Shown: in pieces, positions 2,370 through 52,042 of the stretch
How positions within the stretch are numbered: the first letter of the stretch is position 1
Layout: each line of letters opens with the position of its first letter
NCBI GenBank assembly: GCA_001038565.1
Contig: LFJO01000005.1
Span: forward strand, 406,764 to 470,763
DNA length: 64,000 bases
Reading direction: 5' to 3'
Source: Alkalihalobacillus pseudalcaliphilus
GTDB taxonomy: Bacteria > Bacillota > Bacilli > Bacillales > Bacillaceae_D
The notes under the pieces: model-generated
Seen by the model: only the letters and a program-made list of their open reading frames with translations
Told to the model about the DNA's origin: nothing
The model's database searches: none
Program-made: the position numbers and the translations under genes

Positions 2370-2616
2370 ACTAAACCATATACAGGTAAGACGTTGATGG
2401 AATGAGTATGTAAGAAAACATAAAGAGAGGGATTCTCTAGGCTGAAAGGAATCCTATGATCACTTTTTACAGAAAGCTACTCCAGAGTGTAGGCAAAACC
2501 TACCGTTAGCCGCGTTAAGGCACTTAAGATATGAACAGGTTATTAATTTGTTTATAAATTAGGGTGGTACCGCGTGAGAATATCTCGTCCCTTTCCATAG
2601 GGGGCGAGTTTTTTTT
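2370..2616 (+). promoter_or_regulatory. T-box riboswitch, tRNA-Ala responsive, upstream of alaS
   Basis: The leader has the T-box parts in order: an AGTA bulge near 2406, AGAGAG and the GGCTG distal loop (about 2424-2443), a specifier loop with candidate codon GCT (Ala) at 2476-2478 after GAAA, the T-box sequence AGGGTGGTACCGCG at 2561-2574, and a terminator (CTCGTCCC at 2584-2591 with GGGGCGAG at 2601-2608, then eight T). Uncharged tRNA-Ala should stabilise the antiterminator and allow alaS transcription. Confidence 0.92.
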
Positions 2617-50911: not shown

Positions 50912-50940
50912 TTTACATATAGCTTAAATTTTGCTAAAAT
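50912..50940 (+). promoter_or_regulatory. Promoter of the second T-box leader
   Basis: TTTACA (50912-50917), a 17-bp spacer and TAAAAT (50935-50940), directly before the leader. Confidence 0.7.
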
Positions 50941-50946
50941 TCATTC

Positions 50947-51170
50947 AATATATAAATCGATGATTGGAAATAGTAGGAAGGGATATGTGAAGAGAGTTGC
51001 TGGATGGTGAAAAGCAATCTTAGAACTTCTGAACTCGTCCAGGAGATAGTAGACTGAATGATAAGTAAGTTTACTCGGTAGCTGCCGTTAAAGCATAAGT
51101 GGGTTTTTAACCAAACTGAGTGGTACCGCGGAGTCTAACTTCGTCTCAATATTTGAGGCGGGGTTTTTTA
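50947..51170 (+). promoter_or_regulatory. T-box riboswitch upstream of a GNAT acetyltransferase gene
   Basis: Contains AGTA (near 50970), AGAGAG and the distal loop GGATGGTG (about 51002), a specifier loop GAACTCG at 51031-51037, the T-box sequence TGGTACCGCGG (51121-51131), and a terminator (TTCGTCTC with GAGGCGGGG, then TTTTTT, ending near 51169). By pairing with the alaS leader's stem layout (TGGA/TCCA below the loop, purine after the codon) the likeliest specifier is CTC (Leu), 51034-51036; TCG (Ser) and TTC (Phe) are alternatives. Confidence 0.88.
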
Positions 51171-51188
51171 TTTAGGGGGATGAGAACA

Positions 51189-51695
51189 ATGAAAATCCGT
51201 AAAGCAAATATGGAAGATGCCATGGCGATAGCAAAAGTACATGTCGCTAGTTGGAAAACAACGTACGAGGGTATTATCAAAAAGGAAATTTTGGAGCAAG
51301 TAACCATCGAAAAAAGAACACAGCTTTGGCAGAAAAATTTAAGTTTAAAAGAGAATCCATATATTTCTTTGGTCATGGAAAATGACGAGGGTTCAGTCAT
51401 TGGCTTTGCAACAGGAGCGGCGGTTGCCTTGCAAGAATATCCATATGACGGTGATGTGACTTCCATTTATTTTTATGAGAATTATCAAGGTCAAGGCTTA
51501 GGAAAACGATTGCTAGCTGCCCTTTTTTCTGAATTTAATAAAGAAGGGTACCAAAATGCGATTGTCAAAGTATTAGCATCGAATAACGCCAAGCATTTTT
51601 ATGAAAAAATGGGAGCGAAAGAAATTCATCGCTATGATGTACCAGATTACGGAGAAGGGAATGTGTTGGTTGTTTATGCGTGGGAGAAGCTATAA
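51189..51695 (+). CDS. GNAT family N-acetyltransferase under T-box control
   Basis: A 168-residue acetyltransferase. It has the N-terminal VHVASWKTTYEGII typical of one GNAT group (PhnO/MnaT-like), motif A TSIYFYENYQGQGLGKRLL, and motif B NNAKHFYEKMGAKEI. ATG 51189 is 8 bases after AGGGGGA; the ATG at 51180 touches that site. A T-box directly upstream means it is expressed when a tRNA is uncharged, so the substrate may be an amino acid, a derivative, or an antibiotic that blocks charging. Confidence 0.9.
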   Translation: MKIRKANMEDAMAIAKVHVASWKTTYEGIIKKEILEQVTIEKRTQLWQKNLSLKENPYISLVMENDEGSVIGFATGAAVALQEYPYDGDVTSIYFYENYQGQGLGKRLLAALFSEFNKEGYQNAIVKVLASNNAKHFYEKMGAKEIHRYDVPDYGEGNVLVVYAWEKL

Positions 51696-51760: not shown

Positions 51761-52042
51761 TATAATTGAAATAAGCGATACATGTACTTTTCTCAATCAA
51801 AGGTGGTCAGCTCACTCCTGATAGAAAGGGGGTGGTGCTCTATGACAGTTTTTGAAGAGTTGATGTTTGCACTTGCTTTTGCAAGCTTCATGGTCGCAAT
51901 CCTGTCATTTAACGAAAAGAAATAATCCACCTTTGAGTTAGGAGCTCGGTGGATTATTTGAACCAATTCGCTGACCACCCTGATAAGGAAGCCATGTATA
52001 GCCTGGCTGTTGGTGTTCCTGCACCAACAGCCTTTATTATTC
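51761..52042 (+). other. Type I toxin-like mRNA with folded ends
   Basis: Features of a type I toxin message around the 27-residue ORF: GGTGGTCAGC in the 5' part (51802-51811) is perfectly complementary to GCTGACCACC in the 3' part (51970-51979); the stop codon lies in a perfect 11-bp hairpin AATAATCCACC / GGTGGATTATT (51921-51958); and a strong terminator GGCTGTTGGTG / CACCAACAGCC (52005-52032) with a T-rich tail follows. A TATAAT lies at 51761. I could not fix an antisense RNA promoter. Confidence 0.6.
51842..51925 (+). CDS. Putative holin-like toxin peptide, 27 residues
   Basis: A short hydrophobic peptide, MTVFEELMFALAFASFMVAI then LSFNEKK, preceded by a very strong ribosome site (AAAGGGGGTGG, about 51826-51836). 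The MTVFE-L start, one membrane helix and a charged end match small toxin peptides of type I toxin-antitoxin systems in Firmicutes (the group annotated as putative holin-like toxin). It would damage the membrane unless its mRNA is blocked. It is too short to be sure of by composition. Confidence 0.65.
   Translation: MTVFEELMFALAFASFMVAILSFNEKK

Follow-up and report, generated by a model that had tools for sequence, protein, structure and literature searches.

A leucine T-box leader upstream of a GNAT acetyltransferase gene in Alkalihalobacillus pseudalcaliphilus, its recurrence in Bacillales, and a possible protective role

The locus and its leader RNA

The window, that is, the whole stretch of 64,000 nucleotides (64 kb) of Alkalihalobacillus pseudalcaliphilus DNA that was analyzed, contains a GNAT N-acetyltransferase gene preceded by a T-box leader RNA. 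The original prediction had marked positions 50912-51695, which run from a −35 box through the stop codon of the GNAT gene, as a complete T-box leader with its own promoter and an acetyltransferase gene as its target. The features of this region are as follows.

50912..50940, + strand: promoter-like site, −35 TTTACA (50912-50917), 17-nt spacer, −10 TAAAAT (50935-50940); promoter scan
50951..51151, + strand: T-box leader RNA, RF00230; cmscan 130.6 bits, full length
51031..51037, + strand: 3′ strand of the specifier loop, GAA-CUC-G; Rfam alignment, register from the leaders of named genes
51034-51036, + strand: predicted specifier codon CUC (Leu); same basis as the loop strand
51117..51148, + strand: predicted antiterminator, whose UGGU bulge (51121-51124) would receive the 3′ end of the tRNA; Rfam alignment and fold
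51137..51165, + strand: predicted intrinsic terminator hairpin, then a U run; terminator scan and fold
51189..51695, + strand: GNAT N-acetyltransferase, 168 aa; PF00583, PF13508, AlphaFold2 model, PDB fold match

In the cmscan search of the 64 kb window, the score of the RF00230 match on the forward strand is well above the gathering score of 93, and the match covers model positions 1-219 of 219 (E 1e-28 over the window). The antiterminator segment alone folds as the expected two-part helix with a UGGUACC bulge (−7.1 kcal/mol), and the terminator is a 13-pair hairpin that is predicted to be more stable (−14.8 kcal/mol alone). The two predicted folds share bases and are mutually exclusive. The hairpin is the single terminator-like one found in the scan of the region, where 0.3 would be expected by chance. 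Taken together, the covariance score, a specifier with a matching tRNA, a UGGN bulge that fits the discriminator of this tRNA, and the exclusive antiterminator and terminator mark the leader, as read from its sequence, as a clear member of the T-box class, which is itself already known. The predicted complete leader is thus confirmed: the covariance model, which had been suggested as a check, accepts it in full, and the alignment supplies both the specifier loop and the antiterminator. The claim of its own promoter stood only in part. A TTTACA-17-TAAAAT site was found, with TG preceding its −10 box, but this candidate is purely a consensus match; since shuffles of the region give a mean of 3.4 such sites by chance, its position, and not its score, lends it credibility.

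The specifier loop reads GAA-CUC-G-UCC (GAACUCGUCC). Its register was fixed by the leaders of four genes of the same genome, whose identities were confirmed by NCBIfam: leuA, GAA-CUC-G (GAACUCGCC); leuS, GAA-CUC-C (GAACUCCCC); serS, GAA-UCC-A (GAAUCCAUCC); and proB, GAA-CCU-G-UCC (GAACCUGUCC). In these leaders, the codon stands directly after GAA, with the closing helix behind it; valS and some other leaders have one base between GAA and the codon. It was also found that a leuA leader in another genome (L096) carries an identical loop string, and that the genome of the window encodes a tRNA-Leu(GAG) (L391), whose discriminator A fits the UGGU bulge. On these grounds, the specifier is read as Leu CUC, as had been predicted. 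The RNA class, the CUC specifier, and the UGGU bulge are common to the Leu T-boxes of leuA and leuS, whose targets are biosynthesis and synthetase genes, whereas the target in the window is a GNAT gene.

The competing reading of the specifier as Ser UCG, shifted by one base, would follow if the loop were aligned to the Rfam consensus without a gap, but it is extremely improbable and was rejected: the Rfam alignment itself gaps at the specifier slot, UCG breaks an A-U pair and puts U rather than a purine after the codon, and the serS leader of the same genome has UCC and the bulge UGGC, in contrast to UGGU in the window. In each of the three tRNA-Ser types that were printed out, the discriminator is G. 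ARAGORN, run on loci and stretches that by their coordinates cover the places of all 65 tRNA matches in the genome, called no tRNA-Ser(CGA); the one place at which it made no call (C20:421244-421361) looks like a degraded copy of tRNA-Ser(TGA). UCG is also rare, as passages of the TBDB paper give it for 3% of Ser specifiers, against 74% of Leu specifiers for CUC (PMC7778990).

The acetyltransferase

The start codon of the GNAT gene was set by us at ATG 51189, upstream of which GGGGG occurs at 51175-51179; ATG 51180 and the upstream GTG 51120 are alternative in-frame starts. The product matches PF00583 with 48 bits (cut-off 20.7) and PF13508 with 47.2 bits, both above the cut-off, so that an acetyltransferase as the target of the T-box is borne out. 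In an alignment of 49 sequences, Q100, G101, and G103 are nearly invariant and G105 is invariant, as expected from the acetyl-CoA motif A of the GNAT superfamily (Q/R-x-x-G-x-G/A). In the genome of the window, 88 PF00583 matches were found, and several GNATs are clustered at 48-56 kb of the window. Just downstream of the gene, a BsrG-like type I toxin RNA (RF01412, 98.2 bits) occurs at 51775-52029 of the window, and a small ORF starts at ATG 51842 within this region.

The best NCBIfam match is ArsN1 family A, an acetyltransferase of amino-acid analogues, with 47.9 bits against a cut-off of 170, and RimI comes second with 46.9 bits, close to the ArsN1 score and below its own cut-off of 86.4; the phosphinothricin acetyltransferase profile gives 28.4 bits against a cut-off of 300. 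The AlphaFold2 model built from the 49 sequences (mean pLDDT 95.1) has the standard GNAT fold; the model built without an alignment (mean pLDDT 41.8) was of no use. The nearest solved structure by fold is 1wk4_A (Z 25.0), and 1wk4/2cy2 is also the best PDB sequence match (E 1.8e-17), although it is named just a probable acetyltransferase and shares 29% identity. Tabtoxin resistance protein and the phosphinothricin and ArsN acetyltransferases, which act on amino-acid-like toxins, follow with Z 17-19 among many others; the similarity to the ArsN1 and phosphinothricin enzymes thus lies in the fold, while the substrates differ and the scores are far below the respective cut-offs. PADLOC gave no match for the GNAT. 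Since these matches are generic and RimI scores almost as high as ArsN1, the substrate cannot be read from the fold and family matches.

Recurrence of the pairing

A profile from a six-sequence alignment was searched against genome contigs, and the best 80 of 474 relatives were kept. Among these 80, a T-box was found directly upstream of the GNAT gene in four; all are predicted to be Leu-specific, and the T-box motif starts at a distance of 77-89 nt from the aligned start of the GNAT.

Peribacillus alkalitolerans (L265): Rfam 128.2 bits, specifier CUC
Robertmurraya siralis (L283): Rfam 117.2 bits, specifier CUC
Heyndrickxia sporothermodurans J6TS2 (L319): Rfam 114.8 bits, specifier CUC
Lysinibacillus xylanilyticus SR-86 (L330): 53.2 bits, short of the gathering score (E 4e-11 for a stretch of 321 bases), specifier CUU

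Close behind the Heyndrickxia GNAT gene, at 2018-3102 of L319, a gene without a Pfam match and a GrpB gene are found. A rough Poisson estimate, for which we assumed 25 T-boxes, 4 Leu T-boxes, and 4400 genes per genome and treated the cases as independent, leads one to expect 0.45 T-boxes of any kind, and 0.07 of the Leu type, in front of 80 genes, compared with the four seen; the probability of at least four is 0.001 for any T-box and 1e-6 for a Leu T-box, the four cases being not fully independent.

The pairing is absent from most of the homologues examined, including the nearest ones. The other 76 of the best 80 relatives have no T-box motif (two have fewer than 300 bases upstream), and neither the motif nor Rfam places a T-box at L253-L255, the closest of these 80 by identity (50-52%). 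Two genomes of the genus were available for comparison, and the other one has no match to the window GNAT at 1e-15; no close orthologue was found, and a contig scan with the window protein alone as the query returned no relative. A search of 41 genomes of the family gave GNAT matches at 1e-15 at 27 places in 25 of them, and among these places the T-box motif occurs only at the window; Rfam at the gathering score on 20 of these 27 loci detected no T-box. In the order, 108 of 397 genomes match at 1e-30, with an upstream T-box in 1 of 27 new loci and in none of 80 further fetched stretches, from which three weak rows were left out. The single positive locus (L058, genome G266) is the same as that of P. 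alkalitolerans; in the family of G266, none of 29 further loci has a T-box, and the order search re-centered on G266 apparently covered the same 397 genomes. These sets overlap, and the counts are not to be summed.

As to the sensitivity of the searches, the loose T-box motif recovered all but one (L025) of the 26 Rfam T-boxes in the genome of the window; L251, one of 43 loci, and a variant in L364 escaped a similar pattern. The L330 case indicates that a degenerate T-box can score below the Rfam gathering threshold, at which 6 and then 18 of the 80 named loci were examined (L305 and L306 in both rounds). Loose motif matches judged by eye not to be T-boxes were excluded. Those upstream of the GNATs of L117, L150, L305, and L306 have no Rfam match at the gathering score and were rejected.

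The history of the pairing was examined with a tree of 98 GNATs, five of them with a T-box, which was built by a quick method with SH-aLRT supports. The sister group of the window GNAT (L028, L031, L035, L317) has no T-box. The T-box label needs 4 changes for the five rows, all forced by starred branches, against a mean of 4.9 for shuffled labels, with as few changes in 39 of 500 shuffles; the trait is thus scattered, with next to no clustering on the tree. The window and L058 were also apart in an earlier tree, which had 134 rows. The GNAT trees suggest that a T-box was repeatedly recruited to the same enzyme family, and one ancestral T-box with many losses is a possible alternative. In the tree of the leaders, the one of P. 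alkalitolerans falls among leaders of HIT genes and that of R. siralis beside leaders of Val GNAT genes, with weak support; those of L319 and L330 are near leuA and methyltransferase leaders, and the window leader lies elsewhere, not clearly placed. Most supports in this tree are low, with 7 of 44 inner branches starred, and the leaders of the T-box GNATs may thus have come from different sources.

Leaders before other non-supply genes and the possible function

A blast search with the R. siralis leader (L283) gave matches at 1e-6 in 51 of 397 genomes of the order, and the hits include two further leaders from the genome of the window. Sequences were fetched for 50 of the 55 listed rows, and the first recognized gene behind each leader was assigned by comparison with eight reference proteins, several of which came from the set itself; the HIT and PP2C genes of L334, the HIT gene of L006, the permease, two methyltransferases, and leuA were confirmed as representatives by Pfam or NCBIfam. 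The first genes and the specifiers, which were obtained by pattern and reading, are as follows.

HIT-domain protein: 28 of 50; 23 CUC, 5 CUU
leuA: 10; 10 CUC
methyltransferase: 4; 3 CUC, 1 GUC
amino acid permease (APC-type): 3; 3 CUU
Acetyltransf_3-type GNAT: 3; 3 GUC
window-type GNAT: 1; 1 CUC
none assigned: 1; 1 CUC

The presence of leuA behind 10 of these 50 leaders ties them to leucine. The HIT gene is followed by a PP2C-like gene in 27 of the 28 cases; this HIT-PP2C pair resembles the window in having a Leu specifier and a non-supply gene behind the leader, and differs in having a HIT-domain protein where the window has a GNAT. One of the four methyltransferase genes starts only 516 nt after the T-box motif. 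The loci of the three non-supply groups are the following.

Leu T-box before HIT: L334-L342, L346-L351, L354-L360, L362, L365, L368-L371
Val (GUC) T-box before Acetyltransf_3-type GNAT: L009 1786-2352, L343, L376, L379 (four genomes)
T-box before methyltransferase: L353, L363, L366 (Leu), L364 (Val)

The genome of the window has 26 T-boxes, and for 5 of them the gene behind the leader, with the ORFs as read, belongs neither to the synthetases nor to biosynthesis or uptake: the window GNAT (Leu), a HIT gene (L006, Leu), a GNAT (L009, Val), a GNAT (L020, 1931-2386), and an MFS transporter (L023, 1832-3040). The last two have near-identical leaders, which are read as Gln CAA because both their CAA-G-CCUC loop and their UGGC bulge recur in front of a glnS gene of G266; tRNA-Gln of the window's genome has discriminator G. 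A T-box MFS transporter also occurs in the other genome of the genus (L242). Since GNATs are plentiful, as the 88 PF00583 matches indicate, some of the T-box/GNAT pattern may reflect opportunity. Among the other T-boxes of the genome, the second one in the window (2385-2595, 93.5 bits) is ordinary and precedes a putative alanyl-tRNA synthetase gene, and that of a serA-like gene (L013, 1501-1778) has the bulge UGGA, a mismatch to the discriminator of the Ser tRNAs examined, which is G; a serA-like gene of the other genome of the genus has the bulge UGGU.

Antitermination by uncharged tRNA is the established mechanism of the T-box class, and T-boxes are textbook sensors for restoring the amino-acid supply. 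From the sequence and the predicted structure, the CUC specifier of the window leader would pair with the GAG anticodon of tRNA-Leu during transcription. When this tRNA is uncharged, its ACCA end would pair with the UGGU bulge, the antiterminator would form, and the GNAT gene would be transcribed; when it is charged, the terminator would form, and the gene would not be read through. The enzyme would be made when leucine is short or leucyl-tRNA synthetase (LeuRS) is blocked, and it would most likely acetylate and disarm an amine-bearing compound that hinders leucine use; candidates are analogues of leucine and LeuRS inhibitors of the aminoacyl-nucleotide type. The predicted regulation by a sensor of leucine charging is well supported by the sequence; as to the substrate, the enzyme may, as the original prediction had it, act on the amino acid itself, on one of its analogues, or on an inhibitor of the synthetase. 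We give a probability of roughly one half to the reading that the Leu T-box switches on a GNAT that most likely neutralizes a putative compound blocking leucine use or LeuRS.

MccE, a GNAT that to our knowledge is not under a T-box, offers a possible analogy. Microcin C is an aminoacyl-nucleotide inhibitor, and the HIT hydrolase MccH and the GNAT MccE, which acetylates processed microcin C, are both reported to disarm it (PMC7157772, PMC4964394). The protective role is proposed because HIT and GNAT proteins, the two types that disarm microcin C, both stand behind Leu T-boxes, the HIT proteins found here being only putatively MccH-like in activity. The window GNAT and MccE share the family and possibly the role of disarming a synthetase inhibitor. 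MccE, however, has about 70 additional N-terminal residues (PMC4964394) and concerns AspRS, not LeuRS, and the likeness does not extend to shown sequence membership of the window GNAT in MccE. The rarity of the T-box among the homologues examined counts against a protective role.

The GNAT may instead serve the economy or metabolism of leucine: in a shortage response, it would acetylate leucine, D-leucine, or some peptide or precursor that contains leucine. Leu T-boxes classically govern supply, and the L283-like leaders also precede leuA and the APC-type permease (10 and 3 of the 50, respectively); nevertheless, we consider this unlikely, as we know of no GNAT step in leucine synthesis, and the HIT proteins, the methyltransferases, and the Val GNAT form no recognizable supply pathway. 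Slightly less credible still is a chance capture, in which a Leu T-box was copied before the GNAT gene with no functional gain. Such an event would fit the many homologues without a T-box, the scattered label on the GNAT tree, the ease with which a T-box and a GNAT meet in a genome with so many GNATs, and the duplication and specificity changes of T-boxes described in one study (PMC3766115). It fits less well with an intact leader that retains its antiterminator and terminator, with Leu specificity in five of five cases, including the synonymous CUU, and with a recurrence above the rough Poisson expectation from assumed inputs. That the enzyme acetylates a macromolecule, such as leucyl-tRNA (at its amino group) or a protein of the ribosome, and thereby slows translation when leucine charging fails, is improbable: RimI is its second-best profile, but the score is well below the RimI cut-off, and, although GNAT toxins have antitoxin partners, none was recognized among the nearby ORFs of at least 60 aa.

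Neutralization of an inhibitory compound, the preferred reading, can be extended with more reserve. Leu, Val, and Gln T-boxes in Bacillales could form an inducible protective regulon, of which the window GNAT would be the leucine-acetyltransferase arm, recruited more than once; this wider proposal is tentative and rather doubtful at present. In such a regulon, falling tRNA charging would induce GNATs, HIT hydrolases, methyltransferases, and an MFS exporter instead of restoring supply, and the induced enzymes and pumps would remove compounds that poison aminoacyl-tRNA synthetases.

What appears to be new, on the predicted leaders, is a Leu T-box before a GNAT gene that recurs in four named genera besides that of the window. 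No T-box-controlled GNAT or HIT gene was met in the main-text portions consulted of the T-box literature on acetyltransferases, GNAT, HIT, and resistance, and a Leu T-box GNAT may possibly have been mentioned in print: 17 T-box genes without an apparent amino-acid link and 54 of unknown function are counted in one survey (PMC2494555). The recurrence of Leu T-boxes before GNATs, HIT proteins, and methyltransferases makes tRNA charging a possible trigger for protective genes. It also names candidate enzymes for whose substrate search leucine is the clue, and the pattern may be a lead to new natural compounds that inhibit leucyl- and valyl-tRNA synthetase.
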